From assembly GCF_003574625.1 (NCBI RefSeq), contig NZ_QNUJ01000005.1:124001-188000 (forward strand): a DNA stretch of 64,000 bases. The letters are read 5' to 3'. A program made the translations under genes and the position numbers. The stretch comes from Shinella zoogloeoides. Lineage in GTDB: Bacteria; Pseudomonadota; Alphaproteobacteria; Rhizobiales; Rhizobiaceae. A model generated the notes under the pieces. That model saw nothing but the letters and a program-made list of their open reading frames with translations, searched no databases and was not told the origin of the DNA. Of the stretch, positions 23,830 to 33,874 are shown piece by piece (the stretch's first letter is position 1; every line of letters starts with the position of its first letter).

Positions 23830-25842
<2,013 letters not shown>

Positions 25843-25941
25843 GAATGTCCCAAGCAAAGACGCTGCGTGGAGATTTGTCAACGGGGTAATTTGCGTAAGT
25901 TATTTCTTACGTTTTGTTGCGCCGCATTCTGTCTTTTCCTG

Positions 25942-26873: not shown

Positions 26874-27647
26874 TCAGTGGAGCGTGCGGGAAAGGTCCCG
26901 TGCGGTGTCCGCCAGGTCGTCGGCCTTGCGGCTTTCCGACACCAGCGCATAGGCGGCGTCGCCGATCTGCCAATAGGCGGCCCGGGCGTTGTCGGCATGG
27001 AAGAGCAGGACGTGCTGCACGGCGAAGGAACCGGGGCGCACGGCGAAGAGCGACAGGCGCTCCCCCTTCGCCGGTTCCAGCACCAGCTCGACGCTCGGGC
27101 CGTAGGCGGAGGGGAAGACCTGCGTGTCGATGACGGTCCAGCCCTTCGGCAGGTCCGGCAGCACGATGGCCGTCGCCGAGCGGATCTCCGCCGGGTCGAA
27201 GGTCTCGATTTCCGGCTGCGAGGTCATGCTGTCGCGCAGCAGCGTCGTCCGGTGCGCGCGCACGGCCTCCTCGACGAAGGCGGGCGGCGGCGTGGAGGCG
27301 ACGACCTGCGTCGCGCCGAAGGGCCCGAGCGCCGCATGGGCGACCCAGCCTGCCGCGATGAAGAGCGCGATGGCGGCGGCGCGGCGGAAGACGGAGAAGA
27401 CGCGGCGATGCGACAGCGCCCGCTCGAGAAGCCGCGCGGCCTCGCGGGTTTCCTGCCGTGTCACGGTGCGATGGTCGGCGAGCGCGAGGCGCAGTTCGTC
27501 GCGCACGCGCAGGTCCTTCATGATCTGTGCGGCCACTTCCGGCCGTTCGGAGAGATAGGCCTCGACCTCGATGCGCCGGCCGACGGCGAGCTGGTCGTCG
27601 ACATAGGCGTTGAGGTCGGTTTCGAGGATGGGGTCATTGCTTGTCAT
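26874..27647 (-). CDS. Anti-sigma factor-like membrane protein
   Basis: 257 residues. The N-terminal cytoplasmic part (LETDLNAYVDDQLAVGRRIEVEAYLSERPEVAAQIMKDL) has the layout of anti-sigma domains. A single membrane segment lies at about 95-112 (AAAIALFIAAGWVAHAAL) and a periplasmic domain follows. The start at 27647 has GGAGG eight bases upstream and overlaps the sigma factor gene by 14 bp. It should bind and hold the ECF sigma factor encoded just upstream. No zinc-binding HxxxCxxC motif is visible. Confidence 0.85.
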   Translation of the reverse strand: MTSNDPILETDLNAYVDDQLAVGRRIEVEAYLSERPEVAAQIMKDLRVRDELRLALADHRTVTRQETREAARLLERALSHRRVFSVFRRAAAIALFIAAGWVAHAALGPFGATQVVASTPPPAFVEEAVRAHRTTLLRDSMTSQPEIETFDPAEIRSATAIVLPDLPKGWTVIDTQVFPSAYGPSVELVLEPAKGERLSLFAVRPGSFAVQHVLLFHADNARAAYWQIGDAAYALVSESRKADDLADTARDLSRTLH

Positions 27648-28179
27648 CGCCGGTGCCTCCGACAATCCTGAGATGGGTGACGGGTGCGGCGCTGCCGCCC
27701 TGTTCGAAGCTGCGCAGCCGCTGGCGGGCGCGGGCGACGCGCGACATCAGCGTGCCGACCGGGATGCCGAGCGTATCGGCGGCCTCCTGATAGGAAAGCT
27801 CCTCGATGGCGACGAGATGCAGCGCCGCGCGCTGCTCCTCCGGCAGGCCGAAGAAGGCGTCGCGCAGCTGGGTGAGCCGCACCGAATGATCCTGATTGGC
27901 CGGCGCGGAGGTCTCCGCGATCTCGGCCGCCGCATCGTGGCGGCGCTGCTGCGAGCGGCGCTGGCGCAGGCGGTCGATATGGGCATTGTGCAGGATCGAC
28001 ATCAGCCAGTTGCGGACATTCGCGCCGGTGCGGAAGGTCGACTGCCGCTCATAGGCTTTCACCAGCGCGTCGTGCACGAGGTCTTCCGCCTCGTCCGGAT
28101 TGCGGACGAGCGACAGGGCGTAGCGCCTCAGCGCCGCAAGCTGTCCGATCACGTTGAAGCCGGGTGTCTTTCCGTTCAT
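27634..28179 (-). CDS. ECF-type RNA polymerase sigma factor
   Basis: 181 residues. Sigma region 2 (about 17-80, LRRYALSLVRNPDEAEDLVHDALVKAYERQSTFRTGANVRNWLMSILHNAHID) and region 4 (about 115-170, FFGLPEEQRAALHLVAIEELSYQEAADTLGIPVGTLMSRVARARQRL) are both clear. The start at 28179 is chosen as the ATG of the conserved region. It overlaps its anti-sigma gene downstream, the classic pair. A GGAAT-N17-CGTAT promoter-like sequence lies directly upstream. Confidence 0.93.
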   Translation of the reverse strand: MNGKTPGFNVIGQLAALRRYALSLVRNPDEAEDLVHDALVKAYERQSTFRTGANVRNWLMSILHNAHIDRLRQRRSQQRRHDAAAEIAETSAPANQDHSVRLTQLRDAFFGLPEEQRAALHLVAIEELSYQEAADTLGIPVGTLMSRVARARQRLRSFEQGGSAAPVTHLRIVGGTGDDKQ

Positions 28180-28187
28180 GCCCCAAT

Positions 28188-28214
28188 ATACGAGCACCGG
28201 GCGACGCTCATTCC
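28188..28214 (-). promoter_or_regulatory. Candidate ECF-type promoter of the sigma factor gene
   Basis: On the minus strand, GGAAT (28210-28214) and CGTAT (28188-28192) are separated by 17 bp, close to the GGAAC-N16-17-CGTT form of alphaproteobacterial ECF promoters. The -10 lies only 8 bp before the ATG at 28179, so the transcript would be almost leaderless. Confidence 0.45.
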
Positions 28215-28955: not shown

Positions 28956-29180
28956 TCAGCAGAGCGCCGACCGGTTCATCAGCATGATGTCGTTCGTGGT
29001 CAGCGTCATGCGGGACGGTTCGTCGATCTCGTCCAGCACGGCCCGCAATGCCTTGTCCAGGCAGAATTCGACGATTTCGGCATCCAGCGTCTTCGCCGAT
29101 TCCAGCGCGAAGGCGACAAGACGCGCCAGCGCCATCAGTTCGTTGCCCCGGTCTTCGACCTCGTTCGTTTCGATTCTCAT
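28956..29180 (-). CDS. Small conserved-type hypothetical protein
   Basis: 74-residue acidic, helical protein (EDRGNELMALARLVAFALESAKTLDAEIVEFCLDKAL). There is no signal peptide or known domain. Codon use matches the neighbourhood and the ATG at 29180 is a natural start. It lies 107 bp downstream of tfuA on the same strand. It could be the last gene of the peptide cluster or an independent gene. Confidence 0.65.
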   Translation of the reverse strand: MRIETNEVEDRGNELMALARLVAFALESAKTLDAEIVEFCLDKALRAVLDEIDEPSRMTLTTNDIMLMNRSALC

Positions 29181-29287: not shown

Positions 29288-30004
29288 CTACTGCGTTTTG
29301 GGTTGATGGGCGGCGGTGCGCCAGAGCGAGGTGGCCCGGAACGTCCAGTCCGCGTGTTTTGCAGGGCTTTGCGGCTGGAAATCGTGAAGGGCCTGCAGCA
29401 GGGCGAGGGCATCCTCGCGTTTCCGGTTCACCGTTTCTACATGGAAAAGTTGCAGGAAATCCTTGCGGAACGCGGCCAGTCCGGCCCTTTCCACGATCGC
29501 CGCCCAGGTCCGGTCCTTGTAGAAGAGAGCGGATGCGGCTGCGCGCAGGCTTGATATGTGAGCCTTATCAATAGCCTGGAGATCGCCGAGGCGATCCAGC
29601 GTCGCATCGACATTGACCATGGGTAGCGAAAGGGCGGGATAGCCGAGTTCGGCCGGGCCGTGCAGCAGGGCGACATCCGCGTCGTCGATGCGCCGGCCGC
29701 TGGCATAGTCCTCGTAGATGCGGCCGATGCCGACCATGCCGAAGCCGTCGCATTCGGCCGCGCGGAGCGCGCCCATGCTCGCCGCGCCGAAGACGGCGAC
29801 GCCCGTCTCCAGCGCGTGGAGGATTTCCTTGTGCCAGACGGGGGCGACATGTTCGAAATTGCCGTCGATCAGGCCGATGGCGGCGGCCCCGGCCCTTGTT
29901 GCCGAGAGGACGTCGCCATGGGCCGCGGGCGGGCGAACCTCGATGCCGTGGCCGCAAAGCGTGGCGGCATCCGGCAGGCTGGGGCCGACGAAGACGATCT
30001 TCAT
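29288..30004 (-). CDS. TfuA-like protein, YcaO partner
   Basis: 238-residue TfuA-family protein. The conserved core covers about 1-170: KIVFVGPSLPDAA, IGLIDGNFEHVAPVWHKEILHALETGVAVFGAASMGALRAAEC, GMVGIGRIYEDYASG and DADVALLHGPAELGYPALSLPMV. TfuA was first linked to trifolitoxin in Rhizobium leguminosarum. In characterised YcaO-TfuA pairs it helps supply sulfur for peptide backbone thioamidation, as in methyl-coenzyme M reductase thioglycine. The start overlaps the YcaO stop as ATGA, so both are made together. This is the final clear gene of the RiPP-like operon. Confidence 0.9.
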   Translation of the reverse strand: MKIVFVGPSLPDAATLCGHGIEVRPPAAHGDVLSATRAGAAAIGLIDGNFEHVAPVWHKEILHALETGVAVFGAASMGALRAAECDGFGMVGIGRIYEDYASGRRIDDADVALLHGPAELGYPALSLPMVNVDATLDRLGDLQAIDKAHISSLRAAASALFYKDRTWAAIVERAGLAAFRKDFLQLFHVETVNRKREDALALLQALHDFQPQSPAKHADWTFRATSLWRTAAHQPKTQ

Positions 30005-31188
30005 GGCATTGCGAACAGCATGCGCGAGAGGGCGCGCGGGCCGACGGCATGCCGGCGCGCGCCCTCGGGGTTCTCAAGCGCCGGCACGATCATCTTGACC
30101 ACGGAAACGGGCAGCGACGCATCGCCGAGCGGCACCGCCACGACCGGCGCGATGCTGCTGGCGGCGAGTTTTTTGAGGCACCATTCAAGCAATCCGGCGG
30201 CATCGCCTTCCGGCGCCGGATAGGTTGGGGCGGCGCCGGGCGCTGCCTCGAAAAGGGCGCGGGTTTCCGCCGCGAGCGGTCGGCTGAAGGTCTCGGCGAA
30301 GAGATCGTCCCGCGCGCCGCTGATATAGGTGAGGCGCGATTGCGCGACTTCCGTCAGCGCGCGGATGACGGCGCGCGCCGCGACGGGATGGGTGCCGTAG
30401 CCGATCGTCACGTCATGGAACAGCGGCTGCCTGCGGGCAAGGATGCCGGCTTCGGCAAGCACCGCCGCATAGGTGGGCACGGCAAGGTCGCTGGTGATGT
30501 CGAAGAGGCGAAGGTCCAGCCCCGCTTCCCTAAAGCGCGCGACAAGCGCTTCGGCGACGGGGTCCGCGATATGCGCCGGGTCTATCGCCGCCGCAAGACG
30601 CTTTTGCCGGGGAAGCAGACGCCACAAGCGATCGGCATCGCGCTCGATGCGCTCCAGCAGGCCATGCAGGATCGCCTCGGTTTCCGAATTGCCGGAGGCC
30701 AGGCCATCCGAGGATTGCCAGAAACGCGGCGTTTCCTCCGTGCGGTCGAGGATCACCGCCTCGCGCGGCACCCAGATGCGCTCGCCCGTCGCGACGTCGT
30801 GTCCTGCCAGCCAGTCGATCACCTCGTCCTCGCCGACGAAGGGCTGGCCGGCCGCTATGAAGATGTCGAGCGGCAGGCACGTTTCCCCTGCCTCAGAGAA
30901 GGCGCGGCGGCAGGAACGGCGTGCGCGCACGAGCGGGTCGCCGGCGACGGCCCGCTCCAGCGCCTCCATGGCGGCGGAGACTTTCGCGTCGATATCCGTG
31001 ATGCCCTTGCCCTGGTTGATGACGATCGAGCGGGCATTGGGGCTCACCGCATTCCAGACCGGGATGCCGAGGCGGTCGAGCCCCGTCAGGCGGGAAAGCC
31101 GGGTGATGCCGAACCGAGGCAGCAGCGCCCCGATCCGGCTCCAGGTCTCTTCCGGGCCGCAGATCCGGTCGGAACAGGGCCGGCTCAC
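30001..31188 (-). CDS. YcaO-family ATP-dependent peptide cyclodehydratase/thioamidase
   Basis: 395-residue stand-alone YcaO protein without a fused E1-like or ocin-ThiF domain. ATP/Mg-binding features include DIDAKVSAAMEALERAVAGD (SxxxExxER type, about 70), GNSETEAILHGLLERIERDADRLW (about 170) and ISGARDDLF. YcaO enzymes phosphorylate a peptide-backbone amide to form azolines, thioamides or amidines; pairing with TfuA points to thioamide. The start is GTG at 31188, overlapping the TGA of the repeat-bearing peptide gene (GTGA). This places the likely substrate directly upstream and translationally coupled. Confidence 0.92.
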   Translation of the reverse strand: MSRPCSDRICGPEETWSRIGALLPRFGITRLSRLTGLDRLGIPVWNAVSPNARSIVINQGKGITDIDAKVSAAMEALERAVAGDPLVRARRSCRRAFSEAGETCLPLDIFIAAGQPFVGEDEVIDWLAGHDVATGERIWVPREAVILDRTEETPRFWQSSDGLASGNSETEAILHGLLERIERDADRLWRLLPRQKRLAAAIDPAHIADPVAEALVARFREAGLDLRLFDITSDLAVPTYAAVLAEAGILARRQPLFHDVTIGYGTHPVAARAVIRALTEVAQSRLTYISGARDDLFAETFSRPLAAETRALFEAAPGAAPTYPAPEGDAAGLLEWCLKKLAASSIAPVVAVPLGDASLPVSVVKMIVPALENPEGARRHAVGPRALSRMLFAMP

Positions 31189-31445
31189 TTGTCCATGAAG
31201 CCGCCGGAAGCGTCCATGAATCCGCCCGAGACATCCATGAAACCGCCGGAAACCGCATCCGCCGAGGAGGCGAGGGCGGCAAGGTTCACGCCCTTGGTGA
31301 TCGTCGCGCCGGCCTTGCGCAGGTCGTCCGCGGCCTTCAGCGCGCCGCCCGAGGGAACGCCGATCTGCGTCACCGTGCCGGCGTCGAGGTCCGCGACCCA
31401 GAGCCCGTCATCTCCCTCAATGCCCAAAACAACCAGTCGCGCCAT
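31185..31445 (-). CDS. Putative RiPP precursor peptide with three SGGFMD core repeats
   Basis: 86 residues. The leader-like region 1-64 (ARLVVLGIEGDDGLWVADLD, then VPSGGALKAADDLRKAG and NLAALASSADA) precedes three tandem heptads (V/A)SGGFMD at residues 65-71, 72-78 and 79-85, and ends in a single Lys. It lacks Cys. A strong AGGGAGG ribosome-binding site precedes the ATG at 31445. The stop overlaps the YcaO start. Position, small size, leader/core layout and partner genes suggest it is the YcaO-TfuA substrate. No family is recognised, and peptide modification has not been shown. Confidence 0.78.
   Translation of the reverse strand: MARLVVLGIEGDDGLWVADLDAGTVTQIGVPSGGALKAADDLRKAGATITKGVNLAALASSADAVSGGFMDVSGGFMDASGGFMDK
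31191..31253 (-). repeat. Three 21-bp in-frame repeats encoding the heptad core
   Basis: Units at 31233-31253, 31212-31232 and 31191-31211 encode (V/A)SGGFMD. The amino acids are conserved, but third codon positions differ: second Gly GGT/GGA/GGC, Ser TCC/TCG/TCC and Asp GAT/GAC/GAC. The repeats are therefore held at protein level rather than being a fresh DNA duplication. Confidence 0.9.
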
Positions 31446-31475: not shown

Positions 31476-33284
31476 TCAGAACCCCGCCTTTTTCAGGCCT
31501 TCATAATACTGCTGTCGTTGCCACTCTTCCTTGAAGGGGACGATCTTCATCCAGGCCTCGACGTCGAAGTTCGGATGGACGACGTAGGTGCGGCGCACGA
31601 AATGCCGCGCTTTCTTCATGTCCCCGAGCATGCTCCAGCAGGCGGCCGAAAGACGGTCGACCGGCGTGCGGTCCTTCATGCGGGCGATATAGTCGAGCGC
31701 CTGCTCATAGAGGCCGAGCGAATAGCTGGCACCGGCGGCGGTCCAGAAATATTCGTCGGGGGAGAGCGGGTTGAGGTCGATGGCGTGCTCGATCTTCCGG
31801 AGGCCGAGATCGGGCCGGGACGCCTGCACCAGCGTATCGGCATAGCTCGCGATGACATTGGCATGGTGCGGGCTCAGTGCCTCGGCCTGGTCGAGATAGG
31901 CGGCGCTTTCGTCGAACTGGCGGGCGTAGAGCTTCACGACGCCGAGCTCGCGGTAGCCGGAGGGCAGCCGCTCGTCGGTCCTGATGGTCTGCGCCGCATA
32001 GTCCTCCGCCTGCTGCAGCAATTCGCCGTCGCCGCGCGCGGTCACCAGCCATTCGAGGAAGTAGCTGCGCGCGAGGCCGCCGAGGGCGGGTGCGAAATCG
32101 GCGCTCGTCTGCAGCGCCTCGCGGAAGCTCTTGCGGGCGCGGCGGATGTCGCGCAGGTCGAGGTTCTTCAACTGACCCTGGCCGACGAGGAAGGTGCGGT
32201 AGGCATCGGCGTTGCGCTCGTAATCGCCGCGCACCAGCTCGTTGTGCTCGATCTCCGTGGCGATGGCACCGGCGATCTGGTGGGCGATCATCTGGCGGGA
32301 GCGGGCGAGCCCCTCGGCCGACAGCGGAAAGCGCTCGGCCCAGATGACCTCGTCGCTGCCGAAGAAGATGAGCTGGGCGAAGAGCGTGTGGCCGTCGCCC
32401 TCGTCGCGCAGGCGCGTTTCCAGGATATAGCTGATCTTGTGGCGTTCGTAGGTGGTGGCCCGGTCCGCCTGCCGCGAGATCTGCGCGGCGGTATGCGGCG
32501 CGATGATCGAGATCGAACGCAGCGCGCAGAGCCCGATCGTCACGTCCTCGATCAGGGCCTCGGCAAAGCGCGCCGCCGCGCGCGAGCCATGCGCCGTGGC
32601 CGGCGGCAGCAGCACGACGCGGGGCGGGTTCTGCCGCGGCAGCGCGATGCCGGCTTCATCCGGCGTCAGGATCTGCATGGACGGCTGAACGGTCATGAGC
32701 GCCGCCGGCGTTGCCGGCCGGCCGGTGAGAACCGCCCGCACCTCCTCGTCCTGCGGATTGGCCTCCAGCAGGCGGAGGGCGGCGGACGAGCGGACCTGCC
32801 GTGCGGCGCCGCTGTCGGCCGCCCTGTCGAGCAGGGCCTGGCGCAACAACGCCATATGGGCCGTCCGCTGCAGCGCGATCCAGTTGACGAGCGCGCGGTT
32901 GACCGGCTTGACGTGCTTGAGGAAATCCTCGGTAAGGAGGCCCGCCAGAATGGCAAGGCCCGCATCCTGCCGCAGCTTTGCGACATCGCTTTCGACCGGA
33001 TCCGGCCCGAGCGCGATGGCGGCGTCGGTGAAGGCGAGATAGGCGCGGCCGAGATCGCGCTGCCGCTTCTGGGCGCGCGAGACGGTCTGCCGCAGGCTGG
33101 CAAAGGCGGCGGCAGCGTTGCCGTCGTCCCAGAAAAGGCTCGCCGCGTCGGCCCTCGGCATTTCCGTCAGGCCGCGCGTCTTGAGATAACAGAGAATCAG
33201 CAGCGCCTTTTCGGGAAAGACGATGTCGTTACCGCCCTCGTCGAGCAGGCGAAGATGGCCCAGCGTCTGAAGCTGCGCCGGCAT
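31476..33284 (-). CDS. SARP/BTAD-like regulator with TPR repeats
   Basis: 602 residues. The N-terminus (about 1-95, QTLGHLRLLDEGGNDIVFPEKALLILCYL, DGNAAAAFASLRQTVSRAQK) is the OmpR-like winged helix found in SARP proteins. A BTAD-like helical region (about 100-180) follows. A TolB/adenylate-cyclase-associated alpha/beta section comes next (about 220-330, PRVVLLPPATAHGSRAAARFAEALIEDVTIGL), and then TPRs to about 560. Such proteins often activate secondary-metabolite clusters. The gene is 30 bp upstream of the precursor gene and 6 bp downstream of an XRE regulator. No ligand or target is visible. Confidence 0.78.
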   Translation of the reverse strand: MPAQLQTLGHLRLLDEGGNDIVFPEKALLILCYLKTRGLTEMPRADAASLFWDDGNAAAAFASLRQTVSRAQKRQRDLGRAYLAFTDAAIALGPDPVESDVAKLRQDAGLAILAGLLTEDFLKHVKPVNRALVNWIALQRTAHMALLRQALLDRAADSGAARQVRSSAALRLLEANPQDEEVRAVLTGRPATPAALMTVQPSMQILTPDEAGIALPRQNPPRVVLLPPATAHGSRAAARFAEALIEDVTIGLCALRSISIIAPHTAAQISRQADRATTYERHKISYILETRLRDEGDGHTLFAQLIFFGSDEVIWAERFPLSAEGLARSRQMIAHQIAGAIATEIEHNELVRGDYERNADAYRTFLVGQGQLKNLDLRDIRRARKSFREALQTSADFAPALGGLARSYFLEWLVTARGDGELLQQAEDYAAQTIRTDERLPSGYRELGVVKLYARQFDESAAYLDQAEALSPHHANVIASYADTLVQASRPDLGLRKIEHAIDLNPLSPDEYFWTAAGASYSLGLYEQALDYIARMKDRTPVDRLSAACWSMLGDMKKARHFVRRTYVVHPNFDVEAWMKIVPFKEEWQRQQYYEGLKKAGF

Positions 33285-33290
33285 GTGCTA

Positions 33291-33734
33291 TCAGATCCGC
33301 AGTTCCGATGCGCTGTCCGCACGTTCGCCCGCTTCCGCTCCGGCGCTCGCCTTGGAGAGCGCGGTCGCCAGCGCGATGATCGACTTGCGCACGCCGGCAT
33401 CGTCGATCTTCAGGAAGGCGCGGTTGAGGTCGAGGCCTTCCTTGGAGGAGACGAAGGTGGAGACGTCGCCGGTCTCGTGGGCGACGCCTGCGGTCGGAAC
33501 GGCGTTCTCGTCGTCCTGGAAGAAGAAGCTCGGCGGCACGCGGAAGACGTCGGAGATCGCCTGCAGACGGCTCGCGCTGATGCGGTTCGTGCCCTTTTCG
33601 TATTTCTGAACCTGCTGGAAGGTCACGCCCAGGCGATCGGCGAGCGCTTCCTGGCTCATGCCGACCATCAGGCGGCGCAGGCGCACGCGGGAGCCGACGA
33701 AGACGTCGATCGGGTTCGGTGTTTTCTTGGTCAT
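33291..33734 (-). CDS. XRE-family transcriptional regulator, PraR/SinR-like
   Basis: 147 residues. A helix-turn-helix (about 9-70) contains NPIDVFVGSRVRLRRLMVGMSQEALADRLGVTFQQVQKYEKGTNRI, the form shared by rhizobial PraR-type quorum and biofilm regulators. A variable C-terminal region with two helices follows. The start at 33734 has GGAGA upstream. It is the first gene of the minus-strand run that continues into the SARP-like gene, the peptide, YcaO and TfuA. Confidence 0.88.
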   Translation of the reverse strand: MTKKTPNPIDVFVGSRVRLRRLMVGMSQEALADRLGVTFQQVQKYEKGTNRISASRLQAISDVFRVPPSFFFQDDENAVPTAGVAHETGDVSTFVSSKEGLDLNRAFLKIDDAGVRKSIIALATALSKASAGAEAGERADSASELRI

Positions 33735-33874
33735 GATACTTTCTCCCCTAGAGGGCATGCCGGGGCATACGATATCGGAATATGCCTTCACTGTGCTCGA
33801 ATACCCGGCTCGATGCAACTGCCGCGGACCGGATTTCATCGCTACCGTAACGTGAGGCTGCGTGTACGCCGCCG

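Follow-up and report, generated by a model that had tools for sequence, protein, structure and literature searches.

A putative thioamide-type RiPP module of Rhizobiaceae, with repeated SGGFMD cores in a small precursor beside a YcaO-TfuA pair

The window, by which we mean the whole stretch of 64,000 nucleotides of Shinella zoogloeoides that was analysed, carries on its minus strand an 86-aa ORF (31185-31445) with an ATG start and a tail that reads V-SGGFMD-V-SGGFMD-A-SGGFMD-K. The three SGGFMD units are seen directly in the sequence at 31233-31250 (residues 66-71, also placed by alignments), 31212-31229 and 31191-31208, the last one followed by the C-terminal Lys. On the basis of its homologue family and an AF2 model, the ORF is regarded as a putative RiPP-type precursor, with a leader of about residues 1-60 and a core tail of residues 65-86. 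Its stop overlaps the GTG start of a stand-alone YcaO of 395 aa (30001-31188; Pfam PF02624, E=2.1e-65), which is predicted to be thioamide-forming, and ycaO in turn overlaps by 4 nt (ATGA) the gene of its TfuA partner, a protein of 238 aa (29288-30004; Pfam PF07812, E=3e-42). All of this agrees with the preliminary description of the locus. The range given there, 29288-31445, holds precursor, YcaO and TfuA, and it leaves out a conserved regulator, an XRE-HTH gene and a small ORF of the same strand.

The regulator is a BTAD/TPR-type transcriptional regulator of 602 aa (31476-33284), assigned from profiles, an AF2 model and its position, and 30 nt separate its end from the precursor. The XRE-family HTH protein is encoded at 33291-33734 (HTH_3, E=3.4e-15), its start having been placed, as likely from homologues, within a longer ORF of 33291-33839. 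The small ORF, o74, encodes 74 aa (28956-29180), has no match in Pfam or NCBIfam at E<=1, and has a homologue downstream in 33 of 64 precursor loci, L080 included. The full module is therefore larger than the range above and consists of XRE-HTH, regulator, precursor, YcaO, TfuA and the small ORF, and in some genomes it is split over two places. The C-terminal tail of the o74 homologues is variable, often with Cys or His as last residue. In the same window, minus-strand ORFs at 26874-28197 resemble an ECF sigma factor and an anti-sigma factor by reading of their translations.

Pfam returned nothing for the 86-aa protein at E<=1, NCBIfam gave just two noise hits, and by this measure the precursor family is new. 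There were 85 homologues at E<=0.001, and the closest precursors among named records belong to Shinella. By a pattern count, 48 of the 85 have one C-terminal unit, 26 have two and 11 have three; the variable repeat number that the preliminary description had proposed to look for is thus found, and it extends to four units in L124 and up to eight in distant loci. In an alignment of 35 sequences, Trp16, Asp19, Gly23, Arg43 and Gly46 were invariant and the core Gly68 was kept in at least 90%, while Gly68 was also invariant in an alignment of 27 sequences. The residue after the core Gly was F in 122, H in 46 and Y in 23 of 207 core units (191/207 together). Because the Gly and the final Asp/Glu are set in advance by the search pattern behind these 207 units, those columns of the unit counts are no evidence, and the alignments serve instead. 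Judged from these sequences, the precursor is laid out as a conserved leader of about 60 residues and a tail of one to four short SGGFMD-like cores.

Distant members keep the leader and swap the core. L124 has four FSGKLE-like units and L131 three GLHEVA-like units, a RSDPSDRAFSF-like core is present in six copies in L146 and in four in L149, and an Afifellaceae MAG (L087:8001-8714) encodes a 237-aa precursor relative with eight HHYFP-containing repeats. In place of the Gly core, the distant members thus show cores such as RSDPSDRAFSF, HHYFPNRG and LSFSN. Precursor genes stand in tandem pairs in L026, L036, L063, L076, L146, L148 and L149. Cys was absent from the 144 unique precursors (L080 and L087 excluded), and it was present in five of 20 further sequences, namely L087 and more distant or later-added ones, in L149 inside a repeat. 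The Cys in L153 and L197 may come from a start codon set too far upstream.

The AF2 model of the precursor (35 sequences) had a mean pLDDT of 66, with strands at residues 4-8, 15-19 and 24-28, a helix at 34-44 and the rest unstructured; with moderate confidence, it predicts a folded leader and a flexible core tail. A structure search of the PDB with the leader fold gave no match at E<=0.001. The repeat in the window precursor is more than chance: in 20000 shuffles of its residues, some 6-mer occurred even twice in just 32, and the real protein has one three times. We also compared pairwise the hexapeptide copies within 11 multi-repeat genes (the window, L024-L031, L002 and L010), and among these within-gene pairs, which are not independent, 53 codons differed silently and 4 non-silently. 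The single-base changes possible in the window hexapeptide are 11 silent against 43 non-silent, and so the amino-acid repeat looks as if it is held by selection.

Co-occurrence was determined genome-wide for precursor and YcaO. The window's family was covered by 247 genomes; 39 of them were matched by the precursor profile and 71, at E<=1e-20, by the window YcaO. The top 39 YcaO genomes by E-value are exactly the 39 precursor genomes, with an E-value cut for the YcaO clade that was chosen after the ranking was seen, and the next-ranked YcaO (7.4e-64) belongs to a genome with no precursor match. Some misses are possible because both searches scored part of the first-look candidates. In 38 of the 39 genomes the two genes were on the same contig, with the precursor 9-719 nt from YcaO (in G022 and G332, with two precursor matches each, the YcaO-adjacent one was taken), and in G352 they were on different contigs. 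A further comparison took 19 genomes of the window's genus, with G011, G012 and G015 shared between the two sets. YcaO is present in the 15 whose precursor match covers at least 76 residues and absent from the remaining four, one of which, G005, has a 48-residue match. The association with YcaO and TfuA that the preliminary description had proposed to search for therefore holds as clade YcaO in 39/39 precursor genomes, and together with the leader/core layout and the variable repeats it gives good support to a RiPP reading of the locus.

These numbers bear directly on whether the ORF could be an unrelated small gene that stands beside YcaO by chance. It is true that a precursor is missing beside certain YcaO loci of the clade, but the searched ones belong to genomes that carry a precursor elsewhere, and with 39/39 co-occurrence, 38 of them nearby, this explanation is extremely improbable; the precursor as a chance neighbour of YcaO is rejected on that co-occurrence. 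YcaO/TfuA loci lacking the ORF had been named beforehand as an argument against the RiPP reading. Such loci exist, yet they were reached from genomes that have precursor and regulator at another place.

Gene order was counted over 64 precursor loci gathered from genome contigs by precursor search. The regulator is directly upstream of the precursor in 64/64, with aligned-end gaps of 17-265 nt (median 30). YcaO is linked in 46/64, and 43 of these linked loci have XRE-HTH upstream of the regulator; all six genes are present in 32/64. Regulator and precursor with no linked YcaO were found in 17/64, six of them with a divergent tfuA upstream. When 13 of these 17 genomes were searched, a clade YcaO was found elsewhere in 13/13. 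At 11 of the 13 remote places an HTH gene precedes YcaO and there is no precursor or regulator match within 1.5 kb; in R. johnstonii 3841 the remote YcaO has its own precursor, and at one place the regulator is present and no precursor was seen. In the genomes with tfuA next to the precursor, no tfuA lies next to YcaO (6/6), which stands apart with HTH. L080 lacks core, YcaO and TfuA altogether and keeps regulator, HTH and o74, but it is not independent evidence of coupling because one deletion fits.

In a YcaO tree of 118 leaves (FastTree, midpoint root), the module clade comprises 90 leaves with support 1.0. It is nested in a clade of 101 leaves (0.989), whose other 11 members also have a related regulator. 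The split loci are scattered over this tree, which suggests that the module may have been split repeatedly. A shared operator between split loci was looked for in 12 genomes, in nine of which the HTH start was located, and no match that differed at fewer than 3 of 16 positions was obtained.

Genomes reached via Rhizobium-type loci also contain a second YcaO-TfuA-regulator system (L198-L206). In three of four such loci (L198, L202, L203 and L204) an ORF of 47-61 aa ending in THALRFR or VHALKFR, unlike the window precursor, lies just upstream of YcaO. In another family, L102 (G077; 1033-1443) has a 136-aa ORF between a TPR regulator and YcaO-TfuA, and tblastn with the window precursor gave no match to it at E<=0.01.

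By sequence and structure matches, YcaO and TfuA of the window are of the TfuA-linked kind. The best NCBIfam model for the window YcaO was TIGR03266 (E=2e-62, 211.3 bits, under the cut-off of 365), and for TfuA it was NF033432 (171.7 bits, under the cut-off of 235.2). YcaO matches the solved MJ1094 YcaO (PDB 6pe3, E=4.6e-38), and TfuA matches a TfuA structure (PDB 6xp8, E=4.2e-26). As a control, TIGR03266 was the best model for 8/8 other TfuA-linked YcaOs, of which L090, L091, L092, L096 and L108 score higher than the window YcaO. Since the control shows this match to be generic to TfuA-linked YcaOs, a Gly site deduced from the TIGR03266 match was dropped. Three features expected of a YcaO-TfuA RiPP are seen: a stand-alone YcaO adjoins TfuA, with a split in some relatives, a short precursor has a conserved leader and a variable C-terminal core, and the precursor accompanies YcaO across genomes. 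The precursor is strongly indicated as the substrate, and thioamide formation is the likely chemistry.

As for the position, the near-invariant Gly, with F, H or Y as the usual next residue, is like the Gly-Phe of McrA, so thioglycine is predicted at Gly68 and in the two further repeats. Thioamidation at the core Gly of each repeat is our best guess, drawn from the substrate and not from the enzyme models, which do not point to Gly, and this rule cannot cover the whole family because distant members have cores without this Gly.

If YcaO instead cyclodehydrated the core Ser to oxazoline, the product would be an azole-type RiPP. In 187/207 units one of the two residues preceding the core Gly is a Ser, and trifolitoxin of rhizobia, which is azole-type, also involves a tfuA gene as far as the available accounts of it go. 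However, 19/207 units have no Ser, Thr or Cys at those two positions and 10/144 precursors have none of them in the last ten residues. The window YcaO reaches 211 bits with TIGR03266 against 106.3 bits with the SagD azole model TIGR03604, which is under its cut-off of 219.25, and ORF clustering over 26 loci revealed no further azole-type gene family among the recurring neighbours. Azole chemistry is therefore disfavoured, and we consider it improbable.

The sulfur would come from a ThiS-like carrier via TfuA, as reported in PMC13063428 (from the text available). A search of the window's genome for the ThiS family gave three matches. A TPP riboswitch (RF00059) lies at 25733-25849 on the minus strand, upstream of thiC-thiO-thiS-thiG-like ORFs. 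A link of the module with this thiamine operon was rejected: in the window the thi genes lie downstream at a distance of about 3.4 kb, yet they are within 8 kb in only 3/64 loci. A link with sulfur genes was likewise rejected, as cysteine-desulfurase-like, persulfide-dioxygenase-like and TauE-like genes follow soon after the precursor in only 3/64 loci (L052:8423-11673, L055 and L056; the names come from reading of translations).

Neighbouring ORFs of at least 100 aa were clustered over 26 diverse loci. After YcaO, regulator, TfuA, HTH, precursor and opposite-strand frames, the biggest groups, named by reading, were ABC-ATPase-like and ABC-permease-like ones in 4 loci each, and no recurring exporter or protease/peptidase was among these ORFs. 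An antibiotic reading is not favoured because of this. A secreted, bacteriocin-like antibacterial peptide would have parallels among rhizobia, whose azole-type peptides phazolicin and trifolitoxin are antirhizobial according to the available part of PMC9670871, but with no recurring exporter past the ABC-type groups it appears quite unlikely here. The same absence from the clustered ORFs would fit a product acting within or close to the producer cell, and an internal or regulatory role is somewhat more likely on the present gene content.

It is a tentative possibility that the precursor is a small protein complete in itself, whose thioamidated C-terminal tail stays attached as in McrA or ribosomal uL16. 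The conserved leader with its predicted fold is consistent with it, as is the finding of no recurring peptidase or exporter nearby, and thioamidation of whole proteins is demonstrated for McrA and uL16 in the accessible text of PMC5589413 and PMC13063428. Against a retained tail, core sequence and repeat number vary widely behind one leader, as in the thiovarsolin precursors so far as their published description is available.

TPR_2 was found in 28 of 29 members of the regulator's family, BTAD in 2 (best E 6.8e-12) and Trans_reg_C in 2 (best E 0.01), and the profile matches of the window regulator itself are mainly to TPR-type models. Its AF2 model (mean pLDDT 84) is mixed alpha/beta at the N-terminus, with a helical part and, at the C-terminus, a helical array. 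Foldseek matched it in the PDB to TPR proteins and to the sensor domain of CadC, and the highest 19-residue hydropathy was 1.58. TPR-receptor/peptide pairs are present in Gram-positive bacteria. Because the regulator is fixed upstream of the precursor in every locus, the 17 without linked YcaO included, and no exporter or protease recurs nearby, the modified peptide or tailed small protein might be an internal or re-imported signal read by the BTAD/TPR regulator. We consider this specific role unlikely; if true, it would mean a Gram-negative rhizobial peptide-regulator pair, built like the Gram-positive ones, with a sulfur-modified ligand.

Taken as a whole, a thioamide-type RiPP module of Rhizobiaceae is the explanation we prefer, with a probability of roughly 0.65. 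The ribosome would produce a small precursor whose leader is folded and whose tail is flexible, and YcaO would recognise it. With ATP and TfuA-delivered sulfide, YcaO would then swap a backbone oxygen for sulfur. The second glycine in each SGGFMD core is the most likely position, so that the window precursor would gain three thioamides of +15.977 Da apiece, which would take its calculated mass (N-terminal Met retained) from 8425.20 to 8473.13 Da. Regulator and HTH gene would control the module. The cores might afterwards be excised, as in thiovarsolin, or retained as a modified tail, and the product would act inside or near the producing cell, plausibly in regulation.

A substrate is now proposed across a bacterial family. 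The family also offers a natural series of one leader with many core sequences and repeat numbers, split arrangements included. It makes approachable how a bacterial YcaO-TfuA pair selects the residue to be thioamidated, and which role thioamidated peptides have in Gram-negative bacteria with no evident dedicated exporter.

The McrA substrate is one residue in a large enzyme and not a repeat peptide behind a leader. The methanogen YcaO-TfuA pair thioamidates McrA at Gly465, before Phe466, so that the substrate has Gly then Phe like most cores here (PMC5589413, from its available text). TIGR03266 and NF033432, the closest curated models for the window enzymes, represent the McrA pair, with a YcaO match that is common to other TfuA-linked YcaOs. 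The YcaO of E. coli that acts on uL16 likewise carries out backbone thioamidation of a ribosomally made protein, though in that system, within the text available, there is no TfuA encoded and the target is folded and has no repeats (PMC13063428).

A literature search, with most subscription papers outside its scope, turned up no description of such a precursor or of its product. The strings SGGFMD, GGFMDG, SGHYDG, SGHVDG, SGGFLD and SGGYMD were absent from the same literature. A genome mining study counted more than 500 TfuA clusters in Rhizobium (PMC8120280), and as a guess these probably include the module of the window. The precursors named in the available text of that study are CCRG-2-, berninamycin-, albusnodin- and Nif11-like, and none of them resembles the SGGFMD precursor, while its supplements may list the family.

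The nearest characterised system is thiovarsolin (varA-varY-varT of Streptomyces varsoviensis; PMC6511847), which shares the YcaO-TfuA pair. We compared the precursors by description and from the available text of that paper. The thiovarsolin core is APR/GPR and actinobacterial, unlike the SGGFMD-like core of rhizobia, some clusters of the type add heme oxygenase, amidinotransferase or ATP-grasp genes, and a BTAD/TPR regulator pairing as in the window module is not described in that text. Thiovarsolin-type precursors carry up to five imperfect repeats, and some are non-repeating, which resembles the variable number found here, and in that system precursor, YcaO and TfuA alone gave the thioamidated product (PMC6511847).
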